DNA of 64,000 nt from Planoprotostelium fungivorum. Lineage: Eukaryota; Evosea; Variosea; Cavosteliida; Cavosteliaceae. The DNA is taken from the NCBI GenBank assembly GCA_003024175.1, contig MDYQ01000113.1, forward strand, positions 1-64,000. The letters run 5' to 3'. Positions within the stretch are counted from its first letter, which is position 1, and each line of letters begins with the position of its first letter. This document shows positions 13,172-58,900 of this stretch, piece by piece. The notes beneath the pieces are model-generated. The model saw only the letters and a program-made list of their open reading frames with translations, was not told the DNA's origin and did no database searches. The translations under genes were made by a program, and so were the position numbers.

Positions 13172-16100
13172 CTACGAGCTGTGTATGGATTTGACCAGCC
13201 ACGAAGAGATGGAAGAGAAAGTGGGGCGATAGTTGGGATCGTTTTGAAAGACCTCGACTAACGTATGAGATAAAATGGAGTCCATTGTTCTCTCTGGTAT
13301 CTACACAATCGTCACCATCTTCATGAACAGCATCATCATCATCACCTGTTGAATCAACTTGGAATGGATGTTATCCGAGGCAACTTTCACTACAAACTCT
13401 GCCGCCGTCAAATCAGGAAAAGGAGGGTTGCTGTTCAGCATCAGCTCGCGATCATTATGATGACGTCCTCTAAACTTACCCCGTCATCACTTCGATGCAC
13501 AAGACTCCCCAGGCCCACACGTCTGATTTTTCCGAGAATTGTCCCCTCAATGCCTCGGGTGACTGTACAAATCAATTGAAACGAAATTTCATCGACTTAC
13601 CATCCATTTGATGGGCCCGATGTTGGTCTGAAAGAATCAATGAAATTTCGACTCGTAATGACTCACCTTGCTCTGATGAATTTCGGCTTCTGAGGCTAAA
13701 ATACGCGATAATCCGAAATCTGGACGATGATTGAGTCCATCTACAACGATGTAGATACTCACCGCTGACTTTCGGTACGAGATCTTCGCTCAGCTGAAAA
13801 CATTAAAATGAAATAAAATGTATTTCGCCTCACCAATACATTTCTCGCTGCCAAGTCTTTGTGCAATACTCTCTCCGATGCCAAGTGTGCCATACCATCA
13901 GCGACACCTTTCAGTATAGACACTCGACTCTTGTAAGACATAGTAGGGTTCCTGATGACGTAGCTCTCCAAGCTGCCTCCCTCCATGAATTCTATTTATA
14001 GATCAGACCACGAAATTTCATCGAAATTCACCGGTGATGAGCGCGAGCGGTCTGGCTACGAATCCGATGAACGATACCACCTGTCAGTGTCAGATTGACA
14101 TGTCTGACAGTTGCTTACGTTGGGGTGAGGTGACAGCCTCTTCATGAGCTCCACCTCACTCATGAAGCCCTCGATGACTTCCATGTCTGCCGTCTTAATC
14201 TGTTTCACTCGTTCGGGTCAGTATATCGTTCAAATGGGTCACGTCGGGACTCACTGGCTACGAAATTTCCGCGATATCTCGCCTTCCAGACCACACCGTA
14301 CGCACCTGTACGTATGTGAATGGGGTGAAAATGGGAATATGGCGAGTGGCTCACCTTCGCCAACTTTTTGGATGATTTCGGCGGTACCGCTGGACGCTAA
14401 TTCGAGGAGTGAGCCGTTGTGATACACTGAATTATCTCGAATCTGTCGACGGTGAGATTTCTCCGAAGATTCAGGGGGATACCTGGTTTCGATCGATGAC
14501 TTCATAGTGGATGGACATTTCCATCTCGTTGTTGTTTGATGTTTGCTTCCTGCTGGAGTCAGTGCCGTCTCATACACCATCAACATGATCACATGATCGA
14601 ATGATCGATCACATGATCACATGATCGCGATGAGATGATGAGACGATCGTGAATATCACAATGATCACGTGACCATCGAATCGTGCATCACCTCTTATTG
14701 CTCTTCCGTATGACGATGGTAGCGATGACGATCGTAATGATGACGAGGAGTCCAACGGAACCCGCCACGATGGCAATGATGATGCCAGTCGTTAAGAAGG
14801 CAGAGTTATCACTCGGTACGTCTGAGGAGTCCAACAGAGTGATGTTGTAGTCGGAATAAGCTTTCGGACCCACTGTCTTTAGATAATCGACCACGTAAGG
14901 TGATGATCCTGTCGTCACATCAGATGAGTTGGACTCATTGATGGTTGATGTGATGATCGATGTGATGATCGATGGTTGATGTGATGATCGATGTGATGAT
15001 CGATGATCGATGTGATGATCGATGATCGATGTGATGATCGATGATCGATGTGATGATCGTTGAGACGAATCACCTTGATTGATATCTTCTGATGTAGGGG
15101 GTAAGATGTTGAGATCAGTGATGACACTGCCGCTGCTGATCTTCATGAAAGTGACTCGATGGAGACTGATATTTGCGATCTGCGATATGGAAGCCTGGAA
15201 CGTCTGTTGATCGAACGACGCAACGTTTCCCTGCACTCTCAATCTCACTGTCGAATTTCAGTGAATTTTTTCGATCTACAACGATGTAGACGATCGAATA
15301 CCTGACGCAGACGTCTTGTCGTCTCGTGCGCAGGAGACTGAGCACAGATAGTATGCGTCCCAATTGATTGGGCACGTGAAGTTGTTTGATGATAGGTCAC
15401 ACGTGATCAACCCCTTCGTCGATGACACGAAGGTGACGGGCCCTACATAAGTTGAATTTTCACCCGAATCTCTACGAAAAATCTCACCCTGTACGGCATT
15501 GTGGGACAGATTGAGATAGATCAATCTTGTCAAACCGTTCAGCGAATCTGCGATCGATCCCGCGATGCGATTCCCGCTGTGGAAATTTGAGAGAAAATTC
15601 ATTTCCCGCCAAAATTCACCTGACATCGAGTTGAACGAGATTCTTGAGATTTCCCAGGGAAGAGATCTGTCCCACCATCTGATTGTTCCTCATCTTCAGT
15701 ACCTATCCCTGTCAGCCTCCATCAACCCTCCAACGTATATCACCTCTATCGATTGCATGCCAACGGTCGAAACATCGTCCGTCAATCGATTGTCGGATGC
15801 AGATAGAGTCTGCAAGGAAGACAGGCTGTTCAAACGAGCTAGTCCCGTCTGATATTTGTTATTGTCGATGATCAGAGCCTGTCGGGGGGTGTCGGTGAGA
15901 TGTCTCTACGATGACGTCTCACGTTCAGATTGGGGATGTTTGCGTAAGTCGAAAAGTCATCGGAATTCGAGAGTTGATTGCGGGCGAGTTGTAGTGTCTG
16001 GAGGGAAGATAGATTCATTTTGGGTGGTATGGAGAGGCTGTCGAATGAATTGCCAGATAGGCTGGCACTCTTCAACTGTCCCAAAATGAACAGAGACTGA

Positions 16101-19100
16101 AACAGCCATCAGGCTATGAGAAACAATAAAATGAAATAAAAGGTCAGAAATACAATGAGATGAAAAAGTTTTGAAGTGAGGGAGAAAGAGAGAGGGATAC
16201 CTGTGGCACAGAACCCGAGAGAGAACAATCATCGAATGCAACGGTGACGAGTGAAGAGAGTGAAGAGAAGTCCAACGAGTCGTACAAGGTGTTTGAAGAT
16301 AGATCCACCATCAGCAGAGAGGACAGACCTTGTATCGCAACCACCGAGCCACTCATCTGTGATGACGTCATCATGATATCGTGAGACGAAGGTGAGATGT
16401 CACGACGTGTGTCACCTGATTGTGGCTGAGATTTACGTAATTGAGGTTCGTCAGCCGATTCAGCGCATCGAAATTTCCACCGAGAAAATTCGAAGAAATA
16501 TCAATTGACACGAGATTGACAGCTCCGCTGATGTTAGACAGAGTACCAGACAAGTCATTGTTACTAAAAATAGTTTCAAAAGGTGTTGACGTCTGAATGT
16601 ATGAATCACCTCAAATTGACAGATCTAATTTGGGGCAAAGAAGTTGAGAAGCTGGGAGGTATAGTACCGTTGATGAGGTTGTCGGATGCGGACAATACGT
16701 TCAGCTTATTCAGCGACATCAAACCCGTCATACTGCCGTGAAAGCTATTTCCATCGATGTACAGGTTCTATTTTTAGCGTCAGCGTATCGACAGGTTGTA
16801 GATGGCGATCACCTGGAGTGATTTCATCGTCGAAAAGACGTCGAGAGTTCCTGCGAATCGATTGCGAGATACATCTAACGTCTGTATGGTGGAGGGCATG
16901 GACAGAGAGGTGACGTTGACCAGTAGATTATCGCTGAGAATCAAGGTCTGGAGCGTTGTAGACGAAGAGATGCCAGTTTTAGAGATATCAGTCAACTGAT
17001 GCATCGTCAGCCATCATCGATCATGAGACGATCGCGATCGCACATCATCGTGATGTCGACATCACAATGGTGATCATGATCATGATGATGACGAACACGA
17101 GACTCACCAGATTACGACTGACGTCCAGAGTTACAAGATTCAACGGAAGAGAAGACATCGGCAGCACCCTCAGTCCATTGCCCTTCAGAGAAAGAGATCT
17201 AACCGAAGCGACCACTTGGTCCACCAGCGAAGGCGCGATACTTCGCACCATATTGTCGTCTACAACGAGGCTATTTACACCCAAGCGATCGAATGTCACG
17301 GTGTTGGTCAGAATTTTCTGCATCGAATTGCGTACAAAAGTGTAAGTGTTGACTGTGACGGAACCTGATAGGGTGAGACATCGATCACATAAAGATGTTC
17401 TATACCTCCGTGGTAATTGTGCATCTGATGATTGAAGGTGGGTGATAGTGTGTTGTCTGCAAAGTAATACGTCGCGTTGAATTGTGGTTGAGAGGCGATC
17501 ATACCCGGCGATCCCTGTCCATCCATCAATGTCATGATGGTGATGATGTTGGTGATGATGATTTTGATGACATACATCAACTGCGACATAGATGTCATTG
17601 AACTGACAGCCCGATACGTAAACGTAATCGTTGATGTCCGCGATGACAGCCTGGCTGGGTGGATGTCCACTGAAAGAAGAACCTGTCAATTTGTACCGCG
17701 AGTAGGCTGACAGCGTGGCGCCGTACGATGCGGAATTCGATTGAAAATCGCAGCCATCGATGGTAAATACGTACTGTACGTACGGTTACGTACGATATCA
17801 CGTGTGACATCTCACCGTGGAGCTACCCGACCTCTGGTTCTTCAGGTAGAATGCACCCCCTTCACCGTTTGCATTTGTGACCGTATTGAATTCGAATCGA
17901 GAGTTGTAGATGCCCGATTTGGGACCAAAAGAGGTGATGTAGAGAGCTCCGCCGTACATCACAGCCAGATTCGATTGAAAGACGCAATTTGAGACGTTCA
18001 AATTGGGACCGGAAGAGCTAGCGGCCAGGTACATCATACCTGCCCGTCTCAATTCTTGTCGTCATGATATCTCACCTCCCTGCCCGGTACCCTGGTTGTT
18101 GATGGCAGTGACGTTGTACAATTGAATGCTCGCGATGAAGTCCTCTATGTACATACCTCCAATCGGGCCGTTGTTGAAAGATATGTCAGTATCCATGACA
18201 ACGAGGCTGCCCACACTCGACCGAACGATCGTCATGCATCCTGTCCCCGTCACATTTAAATGTGCCATCTACAACTCACCCGCAGACGGCATCGTTGTAG
18301 AATTGGAAGAAATGGCCGAATTAAATTGGAATTTCGATCGCAACACGGTGACGTTACCTGCCGTAGCCGTGTTGATGAACAGCGGCATCAACTGATTTTG
18401 TATGGACGTCACGTTAATTAACGTGAGGCTCTTGGCAGATGCGACACCGTAAGACCTCATGAGAGCGATGAAGGCGGCGTTCTGTCCCATGAGACAATTC
18501 TTCGCGGTGGATTCTGTGATGATGATGGCATCATGCGTTCCGCTGATCAAGATGAGACCTCCATAGATGGGTCTCTCTTGTGGACCGATGCCGATGGGTT
18601 GAGGGAACGTCCTCGCTTGGGTGAAGGTGTTGCGAGAGAGGGTGACCTGGTTGGTGAAGGTGTACCAATCGAAGTAGACTTGAAAGAGGGCGAGATTGGC
18701 AAGGAACAAGTTGTCCGTGATGGATATCTTGTCGTATCGACCCTCTGCTACTTTGATGACGCCGTAGTTGGCTGATGCGTGTGAGGATTGTGAGATGAGA
18801 TCAGATGATTGAGATCGAGATGGTCGAGATGATTAGACGTGATGAGATCAGATCAGATGATTGGCAATCAGGTGATCTCGGATCTGATGTAGATGATTGC
18901 AAATGAGAAGATCTCAGATCTGATGTAGAAGAGGTGATCTTGGAACTCACTCCAAGCGTTAGAGAACGAATTGTAAGAGATGACGAGGTTGATGTTGTTG
19001 ATCATGTGCATGTCGATCTGTCCCTCTAAATGGTCTTGAACGACATCCGTGAAAGTATTATTCAGGATGTAGGCGGTGGGTGTCTGCGCTCCAAGGTGAA

Positions 19101-19766
19101 AGATGGGAGTAGCAGTATTGCAGCTGGAGATGGTGTTGCCTGTGATGGAGATGGTGGGTATGAGCCCCTTCAGATGGACGTTGGCAACTGTCATTATCAG
19201 TAGGTTGTAGGATATAAAATCACACACGTCCAGAACTTATGGTAATCTGCTGGAACGTGCATTGATCGATGGAGACGGAAGCGGCATTATAGATGTAGAG
19301 AGATGAATTGGTGATGGAGGTGAAGACACAGGAGGATACTGTGACAGATCCTGCATCACTCAAACTCAATGCAGGAGATGATATAGAGGATCCGGCGAAT
19401 GAGACAGCTGCATCGAGTGAGTGAACTGTTGATGCCACCTTCTCACCGCTGAATGTCACATTTCCTATGGACTGGAAAGAGAACGAACTGGTGATGAAGT
19501 TGCCGTTTGAGAAAAACACGTTGACTGTCGGTTTAGAGATGATTTGGATGCTGACACTCTGAAAAGTCTGATCTGGATCTAAATTGAAGTATATATCTCC
19601 AGACGTTGTATTTCTGATTGCATCGTTGATCACTTCAACGTATGAGCCCCTTCTAAGAATCGCTATGCGAGAGCATCTCACCCGATTGGATATTCTGTGT
19701 TGTTGATATGTCCACAGTGAGAGAATACACAGATAGAAGGCAACAGAGGAGAACCACTGCTTTCAT
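13172..19766 (-). CDS. Receptor tyrosine-kinase-like protein with beta-helix and leucine-rich-repeat ectodomain
   Basis: A single-pass receptor of roughly 1,700 residues. It starts MKAVVLLCCLLSVYSLTVDI (signal peptide, 19766). The first half is a repetitive Val/Ser/Asn-rich right-handed beta-helix type region (about 19.7-17.1 kb). LRRs follow (about 17.0-15.3 kb; NLVSIDISSNFLGGNFDAL, LIYLNLSHNAV). A TM helix GIIIAIVAGSVGLLVIITIV lies near 14.75 kb. The kinase spans 14.45-13.17 kb: P-loop GEGAYGVV, VAIK lysine, HKDLAARNVL, DFGLSR, PIKWMSPEAL and NYRPTFSSISSWL. All catalytic residues are present, and HxDLAARN with PIKWM are tyrosine-kinase rather than Ser/Thr signatures. At least eight short introns cut the kinase domain. 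The ligand is unknown. Exon joins in the ectodomain are only partly resolved. Confidence 0.82.
13739..13756 (-). repeat. Intronic palindrome ATCTACA-N4-TGTAGAT
   Basis: In the receptor kinase intron just upstream of the DFGLSR exon; on the coding strand it directly follows the donor GTGAGT. Confidence 0.9.
14081..14110 (-). repeat. Intronic inverted repeat CTGTCAG...CTGACAG
   Basis: An almost entirely self-complementary 38-nt kinase-gene intron: GTCAGACATGTCAATCTGAC forms a hairpin whose outer arms are CTGTCAG and CTGACAG. A related palindrome is at 31119-31150. Confidence 0.75.
14938..15062 (-). repeat. Intronic minisatellite GATCGATGTGAT
   Basis: About 125 bp of alternating GATGATCGAT and GTGATGATCGAT units lie in an intron between the LRR and TM exons of the receptor kinase gene. 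The units are self-complementary at ATCGAT and can fold back. The repeat reads through in several frames, giving false His/Asp/Ser-rich ORFs. Confidence 0.75.
15274..15290 (-). repeat. Intronic palindrome TCTACA-N4-TGTAGA
   Basis: A copy in an LRR-region intron of the receptor kinase, 10-11 nt inside the donor GTATTCGATC on the coding strand. Confidence 0.85.
17768..17794 (-). repeat. Intronic TACGTAC palindrome cluster
   Basis: TACGTACTGTACGTACGGTT and a further TACGTACG lie in an intron of the receptor kinase beta-helix region. Confidence 0.7.
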
Positions 19767-19937: not shown

Positions 19938-21286
19938 TCACTTTTTTAAATGATTCATCTTCATCTCTTTCGACCCGTAGTCGAGCTTAGCATCTTTGTA
20001 TGGGACGCAGTGGACTCCCTTCTTAGGTGCACCTGCCCACTCGATCAACTCCTTGTCCTCCACTTTGACTTCTGGACCGTTGACGGCTTTCGTTTTCAGA
20101 TACACATCCTCTTTATAAGCAACTGCAACTGCTGGCAACATCTGTATCTTGCCTTTTCCGACCATCCAAAAATCTATTGCACCGTCAGATGATGATGACG
20201 TTCATGATCGGATATCGACACACCTTTGCAGATCCGTGTCGATTCAGATTCTCTACATTCTCCCTTTGTGACGTTGGCATCGCGAAAGACGAGGTCGTTG
20301 TCCACAAACGGTATCGCATCAAAGATGAGCATACCATTCCAGCACGAGTACATCTGAATGGGCAGCCTCTGCAGATACCTCTTCTTCGATGGCGCATGAA
20401 GTTCGAAGAAAGAATGAGATCTCCCGATCGTCCATAATGCATTTCCTTCGATGTCCCTCGCCACCCACCAATCGTAAAAGCCCTTGGGTTTGGAGTAATC
20501 CGTAGCACATGTAACGTCTGCCTTCTGATGGAAGTGCTGATGGAGGAGTTCCAGAAGGTCGTCCACGCAGTAATAGACGTCGTTGAAGAAGAAGAGGAGA
20601 TTGAAGCGAGTGGAGGACTTTTTGAGGTGTGAGATGACAAGGTTCCTTAGATCGGCCAAGATGGGGATTCGATCGTCTGGTTTCATCTTCCAATCAGGTC
20701 CCACAGGATTTGTCGTGACGAAGATCTCAGAGTCGTTCACTCCAAGGTGGCGCAGCATGGGAATCAGCGCTTCGTCGAGGATGTTCCTCGTCTGGTCGGT
20801 GGAGCCGGACTCGTGGATAGAAGCACCGAAGGTGATGGTGTCGCTCTTCAGAAACAACATGAGGTCGGTGATGGCTTGCATTTGTGTGGGCAAGATGTGG
20901 TCTGTGTTGAAGGTATTGCCACCCAGCAGGATGTTGAATGTTTTGTTTCTCAGATATCCATATCTTGATTCCAATGAAGGATCACCCAGACGTTGACCGC
21001 ACGGCATCATGTGTGCTTCTGTTCCGTTCAGGGCAGCAGAGAGTAATCGAGCCAGTACATCGTAGGTCTCACTCCTAGAGGGCCACGACGGCCTCTCTTC
21101 GATGATCGGTCCCAATGATGTCTTCTCTCTCGTGATGAGTTCTGTTCGCACCGGTGCATCAACGTGTGGCTGTGGTAATCCCTTTTCATACGTGAACAGA
21201 CTCTCTGGTATGGACACTCGGTTGAATAGAAAGATGCAACCGACCAAGAAGACGAGGGTGTTGAAGCGCAATCGTGGAGCGATCAT
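19938..21286 (-). CDS. CAP59/CMT1-family glycosyltransferase, paralogue 2
   Basis: A second member of the family at 11379-12701, also type II. I chose the start MIAPRLRFNTLVFLVGCIFLF (21286), which puts the membrane anchor at the N-terminus; an in-frame ATG at 21364 would add 26 residues. Conserved blocks are NILLGGNTFNTDHILPTQ, FGASIHESGSTDQT, EIFVTTNPVGPDWKM, LLFFFNDVYYCVDDLLELLH and RLPIQMYSCWNGMLIFDA, ending KMNHLKK. It has one intron, after CRESESTRICK, shared in position with paralogue 1; the other paralogue-1 intron is absent here (ARDIEGNALW is continuous). The two are similar across the whole catalytic domain but differ in the stem region, so they arose by a not very recent local duplication. 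Confidence 0.88.
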
Positions 21287-21735: not shown

Positions 21736-23026
21736 ATGATGATGTCCAACTTACTGTCACATTCTTCGAGATGTATTGCACGCCCTAAATTACACTGCAA
21801 CTTCGTTCTTCGAAGATGGAATCATACAAAAGCAAATGACCAGCTCTCTCAACGGGCGAAAACATTGGTTGATTCCAGGAAGATTGGTGTCCTCACTTCA
21901 GGTACAATATAGTCCCATCGATCTGATGAACTCACATTTCCGCAGTTTCCGCCGAAAGAGATAAAGAAGGTGTCTGTCATAGAAAAGAAGCGACGTCTCA
22001 CACGTTAGACAGGCGAAGAATCACCTCTCTTTGGCTCCATGATGCCTTACGTGGTCGATCTGAAGAAGGGGAAGCCTCTCATCGCCCTGCGACCTGAGGA
22101 AACCCATTCGAAACACATCAATGAGACACCTAAAGTGTCTCTGTTGGTACGTCCCAGATCCTCATACCCCATGCATTCTCACCTCGATGAAACAGGTGTA
22201 CCCTTTGACGCCCGTAGACATACCACCCACTTCTGTTCCCGTCCCCAGAATCAATCTCAAATGTTTCGCATCTCCTCTGAAGGTGATTCATTGGTCTAAT
22301 CGATGTCGATGGAACCATGATCAACCGAAAAGTAGGATGAAGAACTCGATCACGCGAAAAACTTGTTCATCGAGAGACATCCAGCAGCCAGACAAATCTT
22401 ACAGAGAGAAAAATTCGATTATTACGAATTAGACCCAATCGAAGTCTTCTTCCTGACGGAGTGAGCACCGTCTACACCGTTGTAGATCGTCATCCTGGCG
22501 CGTTGTAGATCGATCTGACCGAAAAAGGACGGACAAAGGCAAACCAGATTTCATAAAACCTGAAGACTATCTGAGAGCAAAGACTGATCCGCTGACACCC
22601 ATCATGGTGGATCTCATCCAACAGATTAACGACAAATTCTCCGACAGCCTCCACCTCTTCCCCGAAGTGTACGCAGGTACGTACGTACCGTACGCACCGA
22701 GGTAACGGTCGACAGACACGGAGATCAATCCAACCGATCCCACTTTTGTTTATTCGGTGGACACACTTGGGTTCAATCTGCTGGGAAAATCGTTGTCTGA
22801 ATCGAGATGGGTAGATTTTCGACTCCCGTTCCCACAGCCGCTCCACACGAAAGAGGAGATATTGGAGGCATTTGAATCTTCTTCAGAGTATGCTAGAGAT
22901 AAGGTGAGGACATGTGTCACGATGATCACCATCACACGATCGTCATCCATCATGATCACGAACATCATGATGTCTGATGCGTCATAGGTATTTACGGGGG
23001 GAGTTCCAAAGAAGAGAAACGCGTGA
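21736..23026 (+). CDS. PNPOx-like split-barrel protein with C-terminal DUF2470, probably mitochondrial
   Basis: Flavin- or haem-binding split-barrel proteins with DUF2470 include the HugZ-type haem utilisation proteins and the plant glutamyl-tRNA reductase binding protein; the exact role here is unknown. Splicing gives an Arg-rich, acid-poor N-terminus (SSRCIARPKLHCNFVLRRW) like a mitochondrial presequence. The barrel follows: RKIGVLTS, then EESPLFGSMMPYVVDLKKGK, then HINETPKVSLL and PRINLKCFASPLK. Next is a helical stretch DEELDHAKNLFIERHPAARQ. DUF2470 is seen as TPIMVDLIQQINDKF and VDTLGFNLLGKS with VDFRLPFPQPLHTKEEI. It ends PKKRNA. About 340 residues and six or more introns. Its stop lies 30 bp from the convergent stop of the next gene. 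Confidence 0.75.
22470..22487 (+). repeat. Intronic palindrome, TCTACA-N4-TGTAGA type
   Basis: TCTACA CCGT TGTAGA lies 9 nt inside a PNPOx gene intron (donor GTGAGCACC). A half copy, CGTTGTAGAT, follows at 22501-22510 in the same intron. Confidence 0.85.
22676..22695 (+). repeat. Intronic GTACGTACGTACCGTACG palindrome at a 5' splice site
   Basis: The donor of the PNPOx intron after HLFPEVYA is embedded in a self-complementary TACGTAC run. The same sequence type occurs at introns of three other genes in the window. Confidence 0.7.
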
Positions 23027-23055: not shown

Positions 23056-26000
23056 TTATCGTATGGACAAAAGGGGTGTCGTCAGTGTGAAGGACTCCGT
23101 TTCTTCTCGGCTAGTTTTCCGTTGTGTCCTCCACGTTTGGATCTTCTTCCAAACTTTACAACACACGAGGACACCACTGGTAAGGAGGGGAATTAGAATG
23201 AGGATCTGTCGTCAGCACGATCAGCATGTGTGATGATGGCAGATGAAGCACCTCGATGATGATGGACACGTCGAAAAGTTGAGAATTCTGACCGTTCAAT
23301 ATGGTGAGACCACAGAGACAGATGAGACAAGTAGTTTCCAAGGCCTGACCTGCGTACGTAACGAAAGGGGTGAAACGTAGGTGGATGTATAGGGACAATG
23401 TGAGTACGGTACGCATGATGGTGGACAACCTGTCTTCCGGTCAGTGTGTTTATGTCATCATGAAACGATTCACCATGCTTGATCGGTGATAAACACGTAA
23501 GCTACGGTGATGACCAATCTCCTGAACATGAACACGGCCTCCCAATATCTACCCCGGAGTCAATCTACAATCCGCCAAATCGACTCACTTGCAGCCCTCA
23601 CGGTAACAACCGTCGACGACCATCAGTATGTCCCTCCCCATGCGCGATCTCGTCTCTTTTAATTTGTATCTACAACGCGTCAACTCCTCATCTACACCGT
23701 TGTAGATGGATCCCTCACCTCAGCAATACGACGGCCAGAGGTGTCGGCAGGATGACAAAAGAAGACACGATGATGAGACCGTTCCTCCACATTCCATCAC
23801 AAGCCACATCACCAGCGTGGAACATAACCCACCGAGAAGGTGAAATCTTTCACAAAGTCAGAACGACACATACTGACAACGTCAGCACCTGCACACAGAA
23901 GAGAAGAGAGAGACAAGAAGAGAGGACGCCTCCGTAGACGAGGAGGACAGAAGTGATGAGAGCGGTGGTCGTGCGGCTGATGAACGTCCTCTTGTCTTCT
24001 TCTTTCTCCTCTAAGAAGAGAATGCTGCTCACCCTGCGACGTCTCCTCTTGTACTTTTGAACGATGCACAGGGTGAGGTAGCTTAAGGCCAGTAAGAGTA
24101 CCGTTCCCGCCGGAATGTACAGTGACATGAGCTCCCTTTTGATGTAAGCGAGCTCCCCGATGCAGAAACCAAACGAAACTCCGTTTGGTTTCTCCGTAAA
24201 AGTTAAGATCTCGTTCTGCAGTTGTTGATTGACTGTTCAAAGTGAGAAGATAAAGTCGAATTCGCACTCACTTAACAGGGGAGCCGTTTGTATAAAGTAA
24301 GACGTCGATTTCCATATCGAGCCATCACCGATGGGCAGGAAGAGGAGAACGAGAGAGAAGATGAAGGGCAGGAGGGAGAGAAGGATGAGCCAACCGTGAT
24401 GGCACTGTGACACGGGCAGACAAGAAGAAGTGAGAAAACCGAGCGTGTGGTTCTGTCGACAGCTGCCGCACAATATACCATCGCGATTACCAATGCATGA
24501 GTCGTTCCAGGGGTGGTAGCGATGATTGCAGTAACCGTTGGGACAGTTGAAGCATTGTAGAAGTCCTTCGTTGGCGTGACACCAGTAGTCACCGTAACCC
24601 TACGAGAATTTCAATTTCATCGTAGAAGTGAAGACGAATGAAATGGAGACGAATGAAATGGAGACGAATGAAATGGAGACGAATGAAATGAATATGAACG
24701 AAATTGTCACCTGAGGATCGTTTCCATCGATACACTGTGCACCACTCGGACATCTCAGACATTGTGTGCCGTTCATCACCCCAGAAGCCATCACACCGTG
24801 TCCTGCGTCACTCATCAGCAAAGATCAACCATCTCCCCTCACCTATGATGTAGTCTCCATCGTCACAAGGTTTACACATCCACATCAAGTGATTCGAATC
24901 GTTACTGGACCGTAACGAATAACCGTACGGACACGTGAGTGAATTACCGTGCACGTTGATGGCTGGATCACGCGGGTAACCCGCTGAATCCATCGATGGT
25001 ACCTCGGATGAGATAACAGTGACTGAATGATCTGTGACTCGATAGATCGATTGATTGCTCGCGACGTTCACCACGATCCCCTCCATCTGTCGATGATGAG
25101 CACGTCACATCGTCGATGTGACACATCAAATCACGATTCGAATCGTCACTCACCGTAGTCTTGAGAGATTCTGAGACGATTGCAGAACCTCTCGGTGATT
25201 GGTTTGCTATGAAAGTGCAGTCTCTGACGATGGTGTAGTACATCTCTCCCACAAATAATCCGCCTCCCTCTGATGAGTCTTGGTTGTACGATATATCACT
25301 CGATTGGATGTTCAATCTGACGTCGGAGCCACCATAAATGGACACACCCCTTCGCTTGCACCTCGTGACCCTATTTGGGTCATTCTCCATCACATCGTGG
25401 AGAATCTGTCCCACCTGACAGATCTGACGAAGATCTTCGCCGGCCCGTAAGCCCTGATGGTGATGCCACCACGGCTGTAACCGTGAATTTCATTGTCCTC
25501 CAAGTCCAAATAACCTCCATACAGACTGCAATCGAGGGCGGGCTGCTTCACGGTAGCATTGTCCCCCGTCCAAATGTTACCTCTCACGGTGATATTCGTC
25601 TGGGCGTTGATGTTATTGACAGAGTGTATCTCTTGATTGGCCTCGTTCTCGGACGTGCGGACGATGACGTTCGTGAAGGAATTGTGAGTCAGGACGGCGC
25701 ATGAGATCTTAAAGAGGTAGGATAGACTCGTGATGGTGTTGTTGATGATGGAATCGTGATGGAGGCAATTTTTCTTGAATTCGTTTCTTGCTGCTGTAGG
25801 TTGACTCTGTCCATGTGTGAGTCATCATCGGATGATGTGGATTCTTACTTTGGTCAGGAATGCAACTGCGACCGTATTTCTCAGCAGAGACACAGGTATA
25901 GATCCTGCGGTGATGATGGCGTAATGGAAGCGGTTGTCCTCCAAGATGATGACTGAGGAGTCTTCATTGAAAGGCTGACCGGTGACCTCTATAGCGAAAC

Positions 26001-29886: not shown

Positions 29887-32812
29887 CTATGTATCGAGGC
29901 ACCCTGAAGGATGGTTGGGACCACCCCAACTGTAATTGGGATCGACGGGGACACCTCTCTCTAAGAGGCGACACCTGAACTGCCTCTGGCGGAACATTGC
30001 CTTCTCGAGAGCAAAGTCACCTCGACCGAGATCATAAGTCCACAACCTCTCGGCCGCTCCGGCAGCCTTTGGCCACATGATTCGGAACAGATTGCTACCT
30101 GATGGACACGTCATCATCCGAAACATCATGATCGTGACCGGGTTGATGTGATGTGGAAGATGATCATGTGTTGATGATGTGATCATGTGATGGTGTGACG
30201 ATGATGACGATGTGATGATGAACGTGATGGATGAAGATCCTCATCATGACGACGACTCACTGTCTATCTTCTCAGACCAAACAGCCACTTCACCACCCAG
30301 AATCTTCGATTTGTACTGCTCTGCCACCTTGTGAAACGGATCGTTCGTATAATACCGATTGAAGTCATTGTGGAGGACACTGTCACGGCCAATAAGACGT
30401 CTCGCGTTCTATATTTAGACTCACTCTAGGTACCACCAATTGGTCGATACGATGACGTCATAACCATCTCTAGCGGCGTCGTTGATCAGATCACCGTTCC
30501 ACCACACTGTCTGAATGAGTCTAATTTTAGGCTACGAGTAGCCTCACCGTGTACGACAGACTTCTTGTCCAACTGCGTTCTAAAATTAGAATAGACTTCC
30601 TCCCAGTGAACTGGAATCTTCCCGGCATCCATCGCAGTTTTCGTCGAGCCCTTGACAAAGTCTAAATAGAGCTGCAGGCTGTCAGCAGCTTCCACGATGT
30701 TCTACCCTTCACATCATTGTGTGTCTTCGAGTGCTTCTGCATGTAGCTACTGATCTTCTGAGAATCACTCCAACACACAGTAGGTACTTCGTCTCCTCCC
30801 AAGTGGCTGCACACGTCAGCGAGAGAATAAAAGGATCGAAAATGATTTTAATCATTTTACGACTCACAAGTATTTGTCTGGAAATAAATCTTCTGCACAC
30901 TCTTTGATGACGGCATCGATGATCTGATTTGGTCATGTCATGTCTCGTTGTAGATGGATCACCTCTCGCGATTTTGGCTCAGTAGGATCCACGGGCACAC
31001 CGCAGTAAATGGACGGACATTGATTCCAGCATTTCGGAATTTTCTGCCAATTTTCCGGTAGAACTTCTGGGTAGGCCACGCCCCACGATGTCGCGTGTCC
31101 CGGGTTGTCTAATTCGACCTGTCACCGACGTGTCAGTCTGACACGTCTCCACGGTGTCGTGGAGAATCTGCCCACCATGACGCGAATTCCGTGAAATTTC
31201 GCAAAGTTTACGACGTATCGGATCTCCTTCTGGGTGTATCTCTCGCTGACGCTCCACGATGCTTCCCACAGTTTCGGATAGCTCTTCACCTCGAACGGAA
31301 AAGACTGAAAAAATCAATTGTAGATCGCCAAAATATCGACTCACGTTACCATCTACAATGTGCCTGAAACGTTTCAGTGTCGGATGATGACGTCATCTCA
31401 CCAGTGGAGGACGTTGAATTTCGCGTAAGACATCGATTCGATGATTCTCTCTAGAGTTTGGACGCTGTGAAAGTGTCTCGACGTGTCAATGAGCACACCT
31501 CTGTGCTTGAAATCCGGCTTGTCCGATATAACCCACGGCGTGTGATCGACTTTATATCTGGTGGATGTCACATCGTGGAGAATCTGTGGGACACTCACTC
31601 TCCGTTCAAATGGTCGAAATAAACCATCTGGGAGAGAGTCTCCAGGGCGTGGAGGGCACCGTAGACGGTGGGTGCTACGATTTTCACCTTGCTCTTCGTC
31701 ACGTTGAGGTGGTATGCCTCGTTGATTCTGTGTGGCGTGTCATCATGGATCATCCATCACCGACACGATGATCGTCATGTCTAAAGAGGATGAGATGAAC
31801 TCACTCGCTGTGGAGTTCTTCGTCGCCTGATTCGATTCGGATGCTTATCTTTGAAATGCTTCCACTCTGAGAGGTCTCGTCCAACGTGTGGATGAATGTC
31901 AGGCGCTTGTACCTGCACGATCATCACGGCTCATGCACCTGTCATCTTCTCACCTCTGGATGGCTCTCTTTAGAATGGGAGACGAAGTAACAACAGAGTC
32001 GAAGAGAGAAGGTGAGACGGTGACAGATCGACCACCGTGGCTGGAGATGGTGAATCGTGTGGATGATTAGAAGATGGATCACGTGAAATCTTTTGGAAGA
32101 GGCCATACGTTGAGTGGAGCTACGGTGAACTTTTGATCTGTAAGATGTGAACATGATGTGACGTGTGGACATGAAATGGAGTTCACCTTTCCTCTTGATG
32201 TACATAGAGGCAGTCCATTGTTTCGTCTCTTGCCAGTTGTCGGTCTTAAGAAGATGTCCCTCCGTGTCAAATGCACGACACTCCTCGATAGAGTCGCACA
32301 ACTTTCTCAAATGATCGTAGCTCGTGTTGGTGGAACGTTGAATGATATCTCCTTTGTTCTGGGTGGTCTGATATAGTCTTCAGAATGATAACTCGACATT
32401 ATCATGCTTAAATCCTGACCTGAAATTGAACAAAAGAGTATGCTGGTTGAACATTAGGAGGTGTTGGTGGTGGTTCTGGACCGAAATCTCTCTCTGGTTC
32501 AGGTTCTTCCTCTTCCTTCGGTGTCTCAGATGGGCTCGTAATCTCGTCCACTTCAAGTTCTTCTTTTCCTGGATGTTCATCATCCAGTGACGGCCTCAAA
32601 TCGATCGGTTTGGGTGCAGTTTCGGCTGGGGATGACTCCCCCTTCGGCTTTGAATCCTCTTTTGGTTTTGGAGGCGTCAACGGTCGAATGAAGTTGTTGA
32701 TCGGCTCTGAGATCGTCTGATTTGGATTCTGTGAATTGGATGCGCTCTGATAGAGCGAAAATAAAATGATGAAGAAGGTCAGGAGAATCAATATGGTCCT
32801 TTTGTTCTCCAT
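29887..32812 (-). CDS. GH20 beta-N-acetylhexosaminidase with long N-terminal extension
   Basis: A lysosomal or secreted enzyme removing terminal beta-linked GlcNAc/GalNAc from glycans. It starts MENKRTILILLTFFIILFSL, a signal peptide or anchor. Residues about 30-130 are Pro/Glu/Lys-rich and disordered. A Cys-containing segment (LRKLCDSIEECRAFDTEG, then MYIKRK) resembles a PAN/apple-like module. The GH20 fold follows: VAPLNVWPLPKDF, HRGVLIDTSRHFHSV, FNVLHW, FHGIRVMVELDNPGHA, the catalytic Asp-Glu pair in KYLHLGGDEVPTVCW, then PVHWEEV, and MWPKAAGAAERLWTYD. The end is SGCLDT. About 700 residues with many short introns; two of these carry the same motif at the donor. The N-terminal extension is longer than in most GH20 enzymes. 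Confidence 0.9.
30946..30957 (-). repeat. Half-copy of the intronic element (CGTTGTAGATGG)
   Basis: Found in a hexosaminidase intron, reading CCATCTACAACG 7 nt inside the donor on the minus strand. Confidence 0.6.
31156..31175 (-). repeat. Shared intron 5'-end motif, copy 2
   Basis: The minus-strand intron between GIRVM and VELDNPGHA begins GTGGGCAGATTCTCCACGAC. It matches the intron at 25391-25414 in another gene except for a one-base gap. Confidence 0.75.
31569..31592 (-). repeat. Shared intron 5'-end motif, copy 3
   Basis: The minus-strand intron just before YKVDHTPWV begins GTGAGTGTCCCACAGATTCT and continues CCACGATGTG. The 17 nt ACAGATTCTCCACGATG are shared with the intron at 25391. 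Confidence 0.75.
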
Positions 32813-38927: not shown

Positions 38928-41900
38928 TCAGCAGCCGTTGCAGCCCACGATTCCCTTCAAGTTCTTCATGACGTTCTCGTGCTTCGCCTTCGTCTCTCCC
39001 AGCGCCTTCTTCGTCGCGTCGTGTTCACCCTTCTCCTTCTCGTGTGCCTTCTTCGTGTCATCGTGCGCCTTCTTCTCTCCTTCTAATTCCTTCTCTGCCT
39101 TCGCCTTCTCTTCTGATCTCGCCTTCTTCTCTCCCTCCAAATCCTTTGACAGTTTCGCGTTGTCGTCTGATCTGGACTTCTTCTCTGCGGCCAGTTGGTC
39201 GGTGATGAGTTTCTTCGTCGCCTCGTGAGCCTTCTTCTCGGCGTCGATGTCTTTGGCGGACTTTTCGTTGTCGGCAGAGTGTGATTTCTTCTCGGTGTCT
39301 AACGATTGTGCTGCCTTGGCGTTGTCGTCGGCGTGTGACTTCTTCTCTGCAGCGAGCTGGGCGGTGAGATCAGCGGCAGACTTCTTCGTTGCGTCGTGTG
39401 CTGTCTTCTCTGCTTGCAGGTCCTTGCTGTTCTTCGCGTTGTCGTCTGCGTGTGCCTTCTTCTCTCCTTCAAGCTCCTTGGCAGCCTTGGCATTGTCGTC
39501 GACGTGTGCCTTCTTCTCAGCGGTAAGCTGAGCGGCAGCCTCGGCGGCTGATTTCTTTGCAGCCTCGTGTGCAGCCTTCTCCTCTCCCAAGCTCTTCTTC
39601 GTGGCATCGTGTGCTGTCTTCTCAGCCTGCAGCTCCTTTCCGTTCTTGTTGTTGTCGTCAGCGTGTGCCTTCTTCTCTCCTTCAAGCTCCTTGGCTGCCT
39701 TGGCATTGTCCTCGGCGTGTGCCTTCTTCTCAGCGGTAAGCTGAATGGCAGCTTCTGCCACGGTCTTTCTGGAAGCTTCGTGTGCAGCCTTCTCCTCTCC
39801 CAAGCTCTTCTTCGTGGCATCGTGTGCTGTCTTCTCAGCCTGCAGCTCCTTTCCGTTCTTGTTGTTGTCGTCAGCGTGTGCCTTCTTCTCAGCCAACAAT
39901 TCGTCTGCAGCTTTTCCCTTCGTCGCGTCGTGACCCTTCTTCTCTGCGGCAAGCTGAGCGGCAGCCTCGGCGGCCGACTTCTTTGCAGCCTCGTGTGCAG
40001 CCTTCTCCTCTCCCAAGCTCTTCTTCGTGACATCGTGTGCTGCCTTCTCAGCCTGCAACTCCTTTCCAGATTGGTCTCGGACATTGTTGACCTCTCTGAA
40101 TAGCTGATCTCTCTCCCTCTCGGCCGCCTCCAGCCTCTGTGTCTTGTCGGCTGATCCAATGGCCAACACGTTGTTCACTACGGCTCTTCCGTTGACCTTC
40201 TCTGAATCATCCGTGGGTGCAGTGAGATCCTCTTTCCACTGCCCGTCGACGTTGTACTTGTACAGATATTTCGTGTTCGGTTTGAGGCCGTCGACGCGGG
40301 CGATCCTCTCGGTGTCTCCCTTCTTCTCTGCGGTCATGGGCTGCACCTTCCAGTCGTTGAATTGACCGCCGACGCCGACTGTCTTTCCCTCGTAAGGCCA
40401 TCGGAATGTGTAGCTGATCTTCTGTGCCTCGTCGGCTGATCTCTGTGCGGCTTCTGTTTGGTTCTTCTTCGTCGAATCGTGGGCGGACTTTTCTGCCGCG
40501 AGGAGCTTCTTTGTCTCGTCGTGGGACTTCTTCTCGGTTTCTAGAGATTGTGCTGCCTTGACGTTGTCGTCGGCGTGTGACTTCTTCTCTGCAGCGAGCT
40601 GGGCGGTGAGATCAGCGGCAGACTTCTTTGTTGCGTCGTGTGCTGTCTTCTCGGCTTGCAGGTCCTTGCTGTTCTTCGCGTTGTCGTCTGCGTGTGCCTT
40701 CTTCTCCGCGGCAAGCTGAGCACCTGATTCACCGGTGGACTTTTTCGTTGCCTCGTGTGCTGCCTTCTCCTCTCCCAAGCTCTTCTTCGTGACATCGTGT
40801 GCTGCCTTCTCAGCCTGCAGCTCCTTTCCGCTTTTGACATTGTCCTCGCCGTGTGCAGTCTTTGCTGTCATCACGTCTTTCAAGGCGTCGTTACGTGTCA
40901 CGTTGTGAGCCTTCTTCTCTGCAGCAAGCTGAGCGGCAGCCTCGGCGGCCGATTTCTTGGTAGCCTCGTGTGCAGCCTTCTCCTCTCCCAAGCTCTTCTT
41001 CATCGCATCGTGTGCTGCCTTCTCGTCTCCGGCAGCCTTCAGACTGGTCTTCTCCATGGCGGTAATTTTAGCCTCAAGCTCCTTGTTCGCCTTGTTGGCG
41101 GCGTCAAGCTGAGCCTGCAGGTCCTTCACAATCTTGTCACCAGAAGCTGCTGCGGCGGATGTCTTTGAAGCAGAGGACTTCAAGCTGTCGTTCTCCTTCT
41201 TCGTGGACTCCAATTGAGCAGCCAAGTCCTTCAGCTTCTTGTCGTTGTCTGACTGCAAGACGGAACACTTGCCATGAGAATCGAGGATTTCTCTCAATTT
41301 GGACTCCAAATCGTTCTTCGTCTTGACGGAGGCGATCTCGTTGTTCTTGACCTGATGGAGGTGTCAGACGTGTGATGGTGGATGAGATGATTACCTGGCG
41401 GAAGAGTTGGTCTCGCTCCTTCTCGGCGGCGACGAGTCGAGCGGCTTTGTCTGAAGATCCGGTGTTGAGCACGTTGTTGATGACGGGTCTCTGATTGACC
41501 CTCTCGGAATCATCGGTGGGTGCAGTGAGATCTTCTTTCCAGACGCCGTCCACGTTGTATTTGTAGAGGTACTTGGTGTTTGGTTTGAGTCCAGAGACGG
41601 TCGCGTTGAAATCATCTCCGCTGCGGGTCATCTTCTGGACCTGATCCGGAGATGTGAGGAGGTGAGAAGAAGGAGAGAAAGGTTTACCTGCCAGTTGTTG
41701 AAGGTTCCACCGATGGCGATGTCCTTTCCTCCGTATGGCCATGTGAATGTGTAATCGATGGCATCATCGGTGGCGGTGCGCTTGGATTCGGCGGCCTTCA
41801 TATACTTCTGAGATGCTTCCAACTGAGTGTTGAGAGCTAAGAGTTGTGATTCGAGATCCTTGACCTTTGCATTGGACTTGGACAGCTCCTCCTTGTCCTT

Positions 41901-50141: not shown

Positions 50142-50912
50142 GATGCTCCTCTGTCAGCTTTCGGAGCGGTTAGATGAGTTGTAGTGGGAGAATTCATCAG
50201 CGACACGCTATTTTCCGAATACTCGGTCCAGCCCCTCTCCAGTGTGCACGTCTATCCCTGCTTCTTCATCATCCTGATCTCCCTCTACTCTGGTGTCTAC
50301 GTCCTATCTGCTGCTTCCGGGCACGACGAGATCTACATAGTTGTACCATCAAGAATGCTAATCATATAAAACAGTAGCTGCTACAGATTCTTTGCGTAAG
50401 CGACCGTATTCTCTAACAGCTTTGCTTTATGATATATTGTCCCATAATATCTATATGTAACTTTCGATAATGGGGGTGAGTGAAACTGACAACAAAAGCA
50501 TCGCACTGATCAACATACATAACGTACTTTTCTTTCGCCTTTTACTAAAGAAAACCGTGTATATTGATTATCATGTGCCTAGATCAATATTTTTGGCGAT
50601 GTGCAAACATCGATAAGCAAGTAAAAGAACATCACACACTCGCATGACAACACACGAAGCCACAAGCAGCTTGAGTGCACCGCATTGTCCAACTCCTGTT
50701 GGATTGTTTCGGCTGATTTGATTGCAAATAAAGCTTTGCCTCTCCACACCTCTATCACACCATCCATTGCGTGTCTCCTCATGCAACCGACAACACATGA
50801 ACTTTTCTTCTTTTACTGAAACAGAAGATCATCGCGGCAGAGTTGGTCTCCATCGAGTTGAAATCTTACAAGACATGCAGACGATACACATGGGCATACA
50901 CGTGCGATGCTT
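50142..50912. other. Intergenic region of 770 bp without a convincing gene
   Basis: It lies between the start of the RhoGAP gene and the end of SmD1, both on the minus strand. It is AT-rich around 50370-50620. A 60-residue hydrophobic ORF at 50184-50369 has only a GTG start and no homology that I see, and a minus-strand ORF at 50571-50798 is unsupported. Confidence 0.5.
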
Positions 50913-55700: not shown

Positions 55701-55824
55701 TATTATGTAAGATGGGATTCCCATCAACGAGAACGTGATCGACTTTGTGGCTGCCCTTGCCCCATTTGACATTGATGTCAGAATACATCTGAGTGATACC
55801 ATTGAAGAGCTGAGGCAATCCCAT
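52742..55824 (-). CDS. XRN-family 5'-3' exoribonuclease
   Basis: It degrades 5'-monophosphorylated RNA processively. Starting MGLPQLFNGITQMYSDINVK (55824) the XRN_N domain reads VDHVLVDGNPILHNILRTIP, then SMFVALDGPAPLAKMAEQRM with RRSRG, then the acidic catalytic block SESPGEGEVKLFKYINDI and VLGRDSDLVLFCLMANNPPD, then EATIDFCLLSLLHGNDYLPK. Residues corresponding to Mg-binding Asp/Glu (VDGN, LDG, GEGE, DSD, GNDYLP) are present. A C-terminal helical part (ESDTRQSFHDYLHHDVAELS) follows and the last exon ends STRVDIISGCMSK. Around 700 residues by my splicing, shorter than XRN1, closer to a divergent XRN. Many introns carry GATGATCA-type repeats. It is divergent from TELO2, with 93 bp between start codons. 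Confidence 0.82.
54840..54925 (-). repeat. Intronic GATGATCAGATGATGAAAT repeat
   Basis: Low-complexity ATGATCA/GGTGATCA units filling an XRN gene intron; self-complementary at TGATCA. Confidence 0.6.
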
Positions 55825-55917
55825 CTTGATGATGATGGTCCTCTCGCCCTGTGATATGAGATCATGATCATCCCGCTTCCAAAAAAATTCCTATTTACAA
55901 GAACCCAATCTCATGTG

Positions 55918-58900
55918 ATGTCAATCAAGATCACATCAGAAGTCGAGAGAGAGTTATGGAAGACCATAAACGCACAGAAGACGAACATCGATGGTTCCAA
56001 TTCCATATCTGACGTGGTTAGACACCTTCGTCCCATCGCCGTCTTGGTTTCAGATCCATCGTCACCGTTACGACACAATCCATCCAATCTATTGTGTAGC
56101 TGGCAAGAATACATGATGTCCAAAGTGTGGCCAGATTGGGGCTACTGCCTGGATACGACGACGAGGGAGGAGCTGATCGATTCCGTGCTAACCGCTGGTG
56201 GGAGCGGCTGTCTTTTGGAAGCGATAGAGAGGTCACTGTCATCACGAAATGCACGGGAAGATGATGCCAGTGCTGCGGTCTCTCTACCGTTCATTCTAAA
56301 ACAATTAGAGGGGTGAGAGATCGTCGTTGCGACAACGAACGTTCGACATTGATCGATATGCAGTTTCGTAGATGGAGATCGATTCGTAGAACTATTCGAA
56401 GAGTCTGTCAGAGAAGCAGACAGAGAGAAGTGGAAGAAGACAGTCAACACTGTCATCGCCATCCCAAACAAGGTAAGCATCTCTTCCAGTGGTGAAATCC
56501 TCTCGAAATCGAATAAAACCGAATTAAATCCATTTTAAAGATCTCCAACGCGGCCGGAGCAAAGAGAGACACCATCGAAAACTTCTCTGCCCAGAATTTT
56601 CTCGGCTTATTCGTGGAAAAGGTAACGAAAACATCTTCTTACTCACCTGACTCGTGCAGCTGATCGCTTCATCATCACAAACGAAGAGATGGACCGAGGA
56701 GCAGATGTGGATGGCATCCCATTCATTCGAGAGGATCTGTAGACAAGGTCTATCTACAACGATATCTCAAGCTGTCATTCATCTGTGCCACCGTGGAGGT
56801 AAATTTCATCGAAATTTCGATTCGAATGAAGATTTTGACTTGGGATAGAGGTGGAGGTGGAGGTGGCGGCGTCGATCGTGACTGGAATCCGCGATCGCAT
56901 CTGCGTGGAGAAATTGGTGGAGGGGATACTGAGAGGCATTGTAGATCGTTCCGATGGGCCTGATCTAGCCCGCCAACTTTTTGGCAGACACCTCGACGTC
57001 GACAGAGACAACGTTTTCACCCATATTCTGACTTCGAAATTCTTCTTGGTCAAGGTAGGACTTCATCTCTTCCTCACTAAAATTTCACCAGGTTTTCGAC
57101 GAAAATTTCTCGAAATTTCTCGTAGAACTCGTCTTCACGTCACATCAAGCGGGTGGGATGAGAATTCCACGAGATTTCAGGCGCTAACGGTGTACAGGTC
57201 TCAAATTATTGAGACGACTGGTCGGTGTGTGGAGCGATCCCATATTCATCAGACACACCGATTTTCGACAGCAGAAATGTGACGTAGAAGCCGATGAAAT
57301 TTCACTGACATCTACAGACGTCACCGATACCCTGCTGTTCTGTCTACAACGCGTAGACAAGGATGACTTGGAGGCATCGGGTGTAGTTCCCTCTTTCATA
57401 TCGGGCACACACTCCCGCATCGACTCACACTTGAAGCACATCGCCAAATTGGGAACGGTGATTCATCTACATCGTTGTAGATGGACGAGATCTGATGAAC
57501 ATCAGACTGTGGGAGAAGCTTTCTCTGTCGTTTTGAACCCAGAAAATCCATTGAAATTCGATGGATTTCACGAAGAAGAGAAAGAAGAAGAGAAGGAGGA
57601 GAAGGAGAAAGTGGAAGTGAAGGTGGAGGTGGGGCGATTTGAAATTTGAATCGTTTTGTTTGGCGGGAAATGACGACTTTTCAGGAGGTTGAAACGAAGA
57701 AGAAGAAGAAGGAGAAGAAGGAGATCGATCCAGATGCACCCCTCTTTGATGATTCAGACGAAGGTGGGGAGACATTAAATGATTTGATTCTATTTTATTC
57801 TCAATCTATGCAAGTGATGATCAAAAGAATGCAAACTTATGTCGAATTGATTTGTTTTTAATATTTGTACAGAGGAAGAGGAAGAATCAGACGATGACTT
57901 GAAACCTTTTGATTTGGAAGACGATGACTCCGATCTACAATCAGTCAAATCCCCTGTGTAAGAGCGTCCATCACCTTCATGACGTCACCTGATCATCATC
58001 ACTATCTGATCATCACCACCATCTGATCATCATCACATCTGATCATCATCACTATCATCATCTGATCATCATCAGACACATGACCGATTGTCTGAACATG
58101 TTGAGACAATCCATGAACGAGAACACCAACAGCTTCGAGATGATGCAGATCTCGATGAAATCTCTCGCCTCCATCATTCAAACAGCCAGCCAAGAAGAGA
58201 TCGGTGTGTTTCCCGCCATCTTTCAGATTCAAAATTCAAACGATCGCAGACGACACGTGCACGGCGGCGATCCGTCTGTTGTTCATCGTAGAGCAGAATT
58301 TCAACGGTTTCGGTGAAGATAAGGAGGGTTTAGAATTGAAAGAAATCCAGCAGAAAACAATCAAACTTGCCATACTACGATCACCCAAGGTGAGAGGATG
58401 ACTGAAACCTGCGACTCAAAATGACAGATCTGCGCCGATTTTCTATGTCAGCAGTTCTATGACGTAAACCACAATCTACAACAGCGAGCCGAGATGTTGG
58501 TTGCCATGAGCGACGCAGCGCGGGAAATGTCTTCTCATTTGAATGAGACTGAGGGGGGGAGGGGTCCGGTGGATCCCACGAAATTTCTCGGAAAAGTCAA
58601 CATCTGGTCCTCGAGGTTGACCAAACCGGTGAAACCACAGAAGGTGAGAAATCCGAGAGAAATCCATCTACAACGGTGTAGATCTATCGAAATCGATTCA
58701 GAGAGGTAGCCCAACACTTTTTTTATGGCCTGGCCAACCATTTCGACCGCAACAGCAGGTACCCCTCCATCCTTTCCCGGGAATCTGACTCTTTCCAGGG
58801 ATTTCTTCTATCTCCTGGGAAGACAAGATCACATTTTGCTGGACAAGCTGGTCTTCACATTGTCAGTCTTTGTCGAATGTTACGACCATCACGATAGTAC

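Follow-up and report, generated by a model that had tools for sequence, protein, structure and literature searches.

We analysed a stretch of 64,000 nucleotides from the variosean Planoprotostelium fungivorum (assembly GCA_003024175.1, contig MDYQ01000113.1, positions 1–64,000; hereafter the window) together with the rest of its genome, and found that a short motif recurs in the introns of unrelated genes. The element is a half-site, (TCC)ATCTACAACG, often doubled head-to-head around a central CG so as to form the 18-bp dyad ATCTACAACGTTGTAGAT, and it is kept mostly inside very short spliceosomal introns (mode about 40 nt). We tentatively favour, at somewhat less than an even chance, the interpretation that the motif is a site hosted by introns at which a putative dimeric DNA-binding protein binds, largely irrespective of strand, the mechanism being one that we infer; its behaviour is that of a DNA docking site more than of a mobile intron or a hairpin in RNA. 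Some 8,000 copies of one 10-mer, concentrated on introns, make an exceptionally strong signal at the genome scale, and none of the common explanations put to the test, namely intron copying, an RNA hairpin and pairing with the U2, U5 or U6 RNAs, held up.

Abundance and form of the motif

Genome-wide counts were made over 36,859,091 bases in 471 contigs, on both strands in the case of the half-site. The palindrome ATCTACA-N4-TGTAGAT is found at 876 sites, compared with none for a reversed control, and the half-site ATCTACAACG in 7,984 copies, compared with 62 (~130-fold). Some contigs hold letter-identical repeats, for which reason these counts may be slightly inflated. The first-pass annotation of the window had described a dispersed intronic motif in unrelated genes and proposed a genome count as a check; the motif is real, more extensive than was noted and far above chance expectation. 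The half-site is also the most over-represented 10-mer in the window and the first 200 kb of contig C1 taken together (62 copies versus 0.57 expected from trinucleotides, among 10-mers seen at least 14 times).

The spacing of the two arms is rigid: of 960 arm pairs separated by 0–20 nt in the genome, 876 have a gap of 4, and the reversed control of the gap search returned a single pair. The motif is therefore a dyad of fixed spacing, a trait of dimeric (bZIP-like) DNA-binding sites. Its letters are sharp, since the 291 kb used for gene prediction (see below) contain 35 exact 16-bp cores, TCTACA-N4-TGTAGA, and only 5 with one mismatch. Half-sites in introns are exact in 54 cases and carry one mismatch in 38, with 32 of the 38 mismatches falling at positions 1, 8 and 10. 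Half-sites lying alone near donors in antisense orientation (69 of the 100 matches listed, out of 1,132) share a left extension, TG[GT]C[TG], with T in 37/60, G in 48/61, C in 45/68 and T or G in 67/69 at positions -5, -4, -2 and -1, respectively. At acceptors the letters matching this extension often read TGAC, that is, the branch point. Among the papers listed by a literature search of sources other than bioRxiv, none describes such a motif in its title or abstract, and among the matches listed for papers containing the motif letters none held the 16-bp dyad core.

Location of the motif in genes and introns

In order to place the motif relative to genes, a gene model was self-trained from sequence on 291 kb, comprising the window, positions 1–200,000 of contig C1 and nine 3-kb loci chosen for holding a palindrome. 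The final model contains 185 genes with 758 introns of median length 43 nt and mode 40 nt, which have the donor GTGAG and mostly CAG as acceptor. Ultra-short introns of 22–26 nt appeared in the first version of the model (for example, 22 nt at position 13740 of the window) and were rejected when the kinase DFG motif showed that intron to be 43 nt long; a minimum of 33 nt was then imposed on all introns, which would hide any genuine shorter ones. Junctions of motif-bearing introns agree with conserved proteins in several genes. The predicted citrate synthase of locus L007, with both palindrome-intron junctions, aligns gap-free to 8qzp over 301 residues, and junctions (marked by a slash) agree with protein-kinase motifs at HRDLKPGN/ILL and LRVK/ISDFG, compared by eye, and at VPKVS/DFG, as well as with hexosaminidase and Vps16.

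The half-site is concentrated in introns. In the window and C1 1–200,000 (264 kb), 39 copies are intronic (1.11/kb), 15 exonic (0.108/kb) and 8 intergenic (0.089/kb), so that introns are ten times denser than either exons or intergenic DNA. Although six of the eight intergenic copies, in 90 kb of intergenic DNA, lie no more than 300 bp upstream of a predicted start, the density in such upstream regions is 0.164/kb versus 1.11/kb in introns, and there is no promoter enrichment. Some exonic copies seem to us to be coding words that match by chance, ATC TAC AAC for example. The model places 22 of the 35 exact 16-bp cores of the 291-kb set in introns and 13 outside; the true bias may be stronger, since several of the latter seem to us to lie in introns that escaped prediction. 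In all, 49 of the 758 introns (6.5%) carry the half-site, a proportion from a sample that includes the nine palindrome-selected loci and in which the rate varies strongly by stretch.

These observations bear on the possibility that the word arises in introns through a bias in mutation or repair and is retained there neutrally because introns tolerate it. Introns are indeed tolerant parts of genes, and the density of the motif varies between chromosomal stretches; against this, intergenic DNA should be equally tolerant, yet its density is roughly ten times lower, and the letters seem more sharply defined than neutral decay would leave them. We regard it as the least probable of the explanations considered.

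The 54 half-sites in introns (15 sense, 39 antisense) use two slots, the interval from donor to branch point and the acceptor itself. Eighteen of the 54, all among the 39 antisense copies, end the intron exactly as CGTTGTAG/AT. In this slot the motif's own TTGTAG is shown to be the 3' splice site, with the last two bases of the motif in the exon. Among the 23 introns that end in CGTTGTAG, the next exon base is A in all 23 and the second is T in 18, as compared with 242 A and 292 T in 709 introns lacking the exact 10-mer (including 5 of the 23); the word therefore extends beyond the splice site. A branch-type motif was found in 16 of the 23, its A being 10 or 11 nt from the intron end in 15, which is the usual position (the motif was found in 324 of the 709 comparison introns, with its A 10–13 nt before the end in 213). 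The word CTGACTCGTTGTAG occurs 409 times in the genome versus once in the reversed control, and is followed by AT in 227 of the 409 cases. The peak exactly on the acceptor and the two-base overlap with the exon are features beyond those described in the first-pass annotation.

On the donor side, the half-site begins within 22 nt after GTGAG in 932 sense and 1,132 antisense cases genome-wide (controls 1 and 3), where about 341 matches would be expected for each orientation from the frequency of GTGAG; the motif thus occurs near donors on either strand. For 19 palindromes the mean offset inside the donor is 8.1 nt, which is less than under uniform placement (14.5 ± 1.7) and close to that expected when 13 nt are reserved for the branch point and acceptor (9.4 ± 1.1; P 0.11), so that the proximity to donors is explained by the free space left in the intron. 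A minimal intron has room for the motif in two places, from donor to branch point and from branch point to acceptor, and these are shown to be the places that it occupies. Only two of the 758 introns (window 23670 and L013 1498) combine a copy on the donor side with another at the acceptor. An element biased towards the 5' end of genes was rejected, the rank of motif introns being flat by fifths (6, 10, 12, 11 and 6; 45 introns, from genes that have four or more), and we do not claim clustering at the level of genes (P 0.057 in the motif-rich stretch and 0.64 in the window).

Tests of intron copying

The first-pass annotation had suggested introner-like elements as one source of sequence shared by introns of unrelated genes; such elements are described by Gozashti et al. 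(2022, PMC9860276) and for Amoebophrya (PMC7789003). The likeness consists in sequence common to introns of unrelated genes, inverted-repeat character and many copies, whereas here only 10–18 bp are common, with no similarity along the introns and no signal of target-site duplication. The columns of the 23 acceptor-type CGTTGTAG introns carry no clear information beyond the motif, branch point and splice sites, and their ends show no excess of target-site-duplication matches over random pairings. Palindrome introns were compared at their flanks: the 35 palindromes have near-invariant arms between unrelated flanks, in which neither a convincing direct repeat nor an inverted extension was found. 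The largest direct-repeat excesses among six lengths were 0.349 versus 0.288 (sd 0.031) at length 5 and 0.296 versus 0.252 (sd 0.024) at length 8. In the absence of intron-wide similarity and target-site duplication, introner copying is disfavoured.

A broader version of this idea would derive the family from introners or miniature inverted-repeat transposable elements (MITEs), i.e. short elements with ATCTACAACG/CGTTGTAGAT terminal inverted repeats that were inserted into genes and became introns, the palindromes representing fused ends. It would account for both orientations, for a single unit common to unrelated genes, for the two bases reaching into the exon and for the regional clustering described below; introners with terminal inverted repeats and without target-site duplications are, moreover, reported for Acanthoeca sp. 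(PMC9860276). In addition to the results above, the rarity of introns with both a donor-side and an acceptor copy and the small number of intergenic copies argue against it, and we consider such an origin unlikely.

Closely related gene copies at hand, including a gene whose DNA copies are 88–95% identical, are devoid of the half-site, while kinase pairs that do carry it are 33–47% identical. Four repeat pairs that were retrieved are letter-identical and hence uninformative on constraint. The letter-identical inverted repeats, located between or within contigs (C5/C120, C65 and C108; loci L038/L039, L040/L041, L042/L043 and L044/L045), are perhaps assembly duplicates.

Tests of RNA hairpin and RNA pairing

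The first-pass annotation had also suggested a selected hairpin that occludes or presents the donor. A hairpin directed at the donor was rejected, since the placement is that expected from free space and outer variants that keep and break pairing are equally frequent: downstream of GTGA, one-sided variants of the outermost pair preserve pairing as G.U in 246 cases and break it as A.C in 233, and pairing-preserving changes thus do not prevail. Lone half-sites, which are unable to form the hairpin, are moreover common, as the donor matches above illustrate.

Pairing with spliceosomal RNAs was rejected for U2, U5 and U6. None of the three shows special complementarity to the half-site, whose duplex energies are outside the best 5% of shuffled 10-mers, and none contains the dyad. 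At the gathering threshold, an Rfam search of 279 kb returned only U5 and two tRNAs. The U5 gene occupies positions 50501–50613 of the window on the + strand, and a broken dyad, ATCTACATAGTTGTACC, lies ~170 bp upstream of it. Two adjacent U6-like copies, with starts 103 bp apart, are present at C74:56400–56602 (L036), the second scoring lower (63 versus 95 bits). The results on small RNAs also concern pairing in trans or between introns of one transcript, in which sense and antisense copies would pair with each other and loop exons, or would pair with an abundant dyad-containing small RNA. Both orientations do occur in introns and the dyad is self-complementary; yet a multi-copy gene may hold one orientation only (C1 183757–187098, with five intron copies, all antisense), the Rfam search gave nothing beyond U5 and the two tRNAs, and U2, U5 and U6 lack the dyad. 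Such pairing appears very improbable.

An RNA-level splicing element of a more general kind deserves more weight. An RNA-binding protein or a hairpin would in this case read the pre-mRNA, the motif acting as an enhancer near the donor and as a branch-point and acceptor module, CTGACTCGTTGTAG/AT, at the 3' end. Intronic splicing enhancers are short, recurrent, strand-specific RNA words located next to donors and acceptors; the motif resembles them in being a short recurrent word beside both sites, and differs in that it occurs on both strands and runs into the exon. The copies exactly at acceptors, the branch A in its usual place in 15 of the 16 introns where it was detected and the abundance of CTGACTCGTTGTAG all favour this explanation. 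So does the finding that introns fold slightly more stably than shuffled sequences (mean z -0.31 versus -0.12 for exon segments), and the longer lone form TG[GT]C[TG]CGTTGTAGAT looks strand-biased, ATCTACAACG[AC]GNCA being found once in sense and 13 times in antisense orientation in a small sample. By our count, 10 of these 13 are acceptors, where the strand is forced. On the other side stand the two orientations near donors, the indifference of the outer pair to G.U over A.C, the exonic AT that is part of the motif, the free-space placement of palindromes and the ordinary complementarity to U2, U5 and U6; a 7-bp hairpin in a 40-nt intron would also be expected to crowd the spliceosome. Because of the copies at acceptors and the strand bias that may exist, an RNA-level reading is a serious alternative, though one that we think doubtful.

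Other palindromes and regional distribution

When 8-bp palindromes are classed by their central four letters, those with an ACGT core are the most intron-enriched (82 versus 24 under a Markov model, 5.7-fold in density over the rest), the next class being CATG at 2.95. The enrichment is headed by TGACGTCA, TCACGTGA and CAACGTTG, the first two of which we take to belong under the C- and G-box. Palindromes of at least 12 are found in 55 of 740 introns versus 13.3 in shuffles; after removal of the 48 introns in which one of four core words occurs, 30 remain versus 12.7 (largest shuffle 21). A general richness of introns in palindromes was accordingly rejected as the full account, since over half of the excess is family-specific, while some remains. 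The second most over-represented 10-mer in the window and C1 1–200,000, TGACGTCATC (56 versus 1.4 expected), is likewise biased towards introns (41 of 56), and some introns end as TGACGTCATCAG.

The families share a region. Introns with TGACGTCA, TCACGTGA and the ATCTACAACG half-site number 19, 7 and 29 of 196 in the stretch 140–200 kb of C1, versus 3, 0 and 3 of 292 in the adjoining 0–140 kb, and 7, 1 and 7 of 180 in the window. Half-site introns cluster accordingly, with 3/292 versus 26/196 in the two parts of C1 (Fisher P 1.7e-8) and 7/180 in the window. The two parts (1–140000 and 140000–200000; L016–L035) adjoin directly, and the motif-poor one, the first, has ordinary-looking genes and introns; contamination as its cause was rejected, codon usage (r 0.97) and splice signals being alike.

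A putative DNA docking site

In the interpretation that we favour, the motif would be recognised in double-stranded DNA by a dimer-forming protein of the ACGT-core-binding (bZIP-like) kind, and the sister families TGACGTCA and TCACGTGA by related dimers. The fixed spacing, the sharp letters, the occurrence on both strands, the lack of any preference for RNA pairing at the outer pair, and the extension into the exon fit recognition of double-stranded DNA by a dimer, and the apparently common ACGT core and the common region fit related dimers. Introns may represent tolerant DNA within compact transcribed genes and would thus provide docking slots in gene bodies, which would imply a gene-body function. 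The bound protein might act during transcription, either by slowing the polymerase and so aiding the splicing of short introns or by marking gene-body chromatin; this is the least certain step, and is modelled on CTCF. Intragenic CTCF 'roadblock' sites affect splicing according to a review (PMC8373115). A DNA-bound factor within genes that affects co-transcriptional splicing in that manner would explain both the gene-body placement and the strand independence, although the sequence is different and the function here conjectural. CTCF sites are not known to be confined to 40-nt introns or to form acceptors.

Plant bZIP sites with an ACGT core are classed by core as A-, C-, G- and T-boxes, AACGTT being the T-box (PMC8309469). 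Three intron-enriched families described here appear to share the ACGT core, and the motif resembles those sites in being palindromic about a central CG, with fixed half-site spacing and occurrence on both strands. The sites treated there are promoter elements, whereas in our case upstream DNA is nearly empty, the sites are intronic, the dyad centre is often NCGN instead of ACGT and the binder is only postulated.

These differences weigh against the proposed docking site, as do several further points. The scarcity in intergenic DNA is odd for an ordinary transcription factor, and the one-third of intron copies located exactly on the acceptor hints at a role in splicing. The slightly more stable folding of introns and the apparent strand bias of the longer lone form also count against it. 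The G.U/A.C comparison covers only the outermost, weakest pair. Palindromes with other cores are also intron-enriched, ATCATGAT with 21 versus 8.4 expected and GAAATTTC with 21 versus 3.4 in the 291-kb set. The gene models, moreover, were self-trained from sequence.

A more comprehensive proposal would be that introns serve as docking slots for a whole family of dimeric ACGT-core DNA-binding proteins. On this view dyads or half-sites would be present in thousands of introns of 40 nt, some doubling as branch point and acceptor, so that the same bases would encode both DNA recognition and splice-site identity, and the system would be in use across some entire stretches of chromosome and missing from others. 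We put this forward as possible, albeit rather improbable in its entirety. If a DNA-level, intron-hosted site is real, it would make the coupling of DNA binding to splicing accessible to study and suggest concretely what very short introns might be kept for; the introns with the motif, the stretch poor in it and the two classes of lone and dyad sites provide built-in controls.

Copies in the window and other features

Copies of the motif in the window are collected in Table 1. Exact ATCTACANNNNTGTAGAT palindromes number four, versus none in 100 shuffles. The first-pass annotation had listed six full copies, among which those at 15274 and 22470 retain the 16-bp core with one outermost base changed, and two of the exact ones begin one position later than given (57465 and 58666 instead of 57464 and 58665). 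The distance of 6–22 nt inside the donor that it had stated for all applies to five, the donor at 15274 being uncertain. Of the half copies, those at 7128, 22501, 23668 and 30946 are exact, as is the one given as 62677, which begins at 62678, whereas that at 16794 has a mismatch. Exact half-sites total 13, of which nine are in introns of the final model; the other four are at 7128, 11313, 56752 and 58666, the last being exonic according to the model.

Table 1. Copies of the motif and related sequences in the window.
Feature	Position	Strand	Location	Remarks
Half-site TGGCTCGTTGTAGAT on +, lone	7128–7137	-	41-nt intron 7111–7151, Vps16 gene (+)	Intron hand-read, missed by model; downstream exon matches Vps16_N
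Half-site	11313–11322	-	Between genes in model	
Palindrome ATCTACAACGATGTAGAT	13739–13756		6 nt inside donor of 43-nt intron 13720–13762 (- strand), tyrosine-kinase-like gene	Junction VPKVS/DFGLS agrees with kinases
Palindrome ATCTACAACGATGTAGAC, one outer base changed	15274–15291		Predicted intron 15231–15306 (- strand)	Donor uncertain; gene model only
GGTTGTAGAT, one mismatch to motif	16794–16803	-		Half copy in first-pass annotation
Palindrome GTCTACACCGTTGTAGAT	22470–22487		9 nt inside donor of predicted intron 22461–22527 (+), CREG/DUF2470-like gene	Gene model only
Half-site TGGCGCGTTGTAGAT on +, lone	22501–22510	-	Also within predicted intron 22461–22527 (+)	
Half-site forming predicted acceptor CGTTGTAG/AT	23668–23677	+	Predicted intron 23670–23718 (gene on -)	Last two bases exonic; gene model only
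Palindrome ATCTACACCGTTGTAGAT	23690–23707		11 nt inside donor of predicted intron 23670–23718 (- strand)	Gene model only
Half-site ATCTACAACG, lone	30946–30955	-	7 nt inside donor of intron 30924–30962 (- strand), beta-hexosaminidase gene	Junction PKSRE/IIDAV aligns gap-free
Half-site	56752–56761	+	Coding sequence of TELO2-like gene (..L-S-T-T-I..)	Chance-type copy
Palindrome ATCTACATCGTTGTAGAT	57465–57482		7 nt inside donor of intron 57458–57505 (+), TELO2-like gene	
Palindrome ATCTACAACGGTGTAGAT	58666–58683		22 nt after GTGAG at 58644 (+)	Model closed no intron there
Half-site, lone	62678–62687	+	Predicted intron 62642–62701 (+), methyltransferase-like gene	Gene model only

The protein of the gene holding intron 23670–23718 has no Pfam match. 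In the TELO2-like gene, an ARM-domain match (residues 240–442) spans the junction of the intron with the palindrome at 57465, at codon 417.

Other features of the window include a DDE transposase-like open frame (DDE_Tnp_4) at 352–891 beside a frame for an RVP_2 retroviral-type aspartyl protease at 866–3046, the two being on opposite strands. Genes at 11379–12836 and 19938–21286 are related, with proteins 60% identical and with 4 and 1 predicted introns, respectively; the second matches CAP59_mtransfer. A repetitive open frame of 811 residues at 38931–41363, with repeats such as EEKAAHEATKKS, contains an AMPK glycogen-binding domain.

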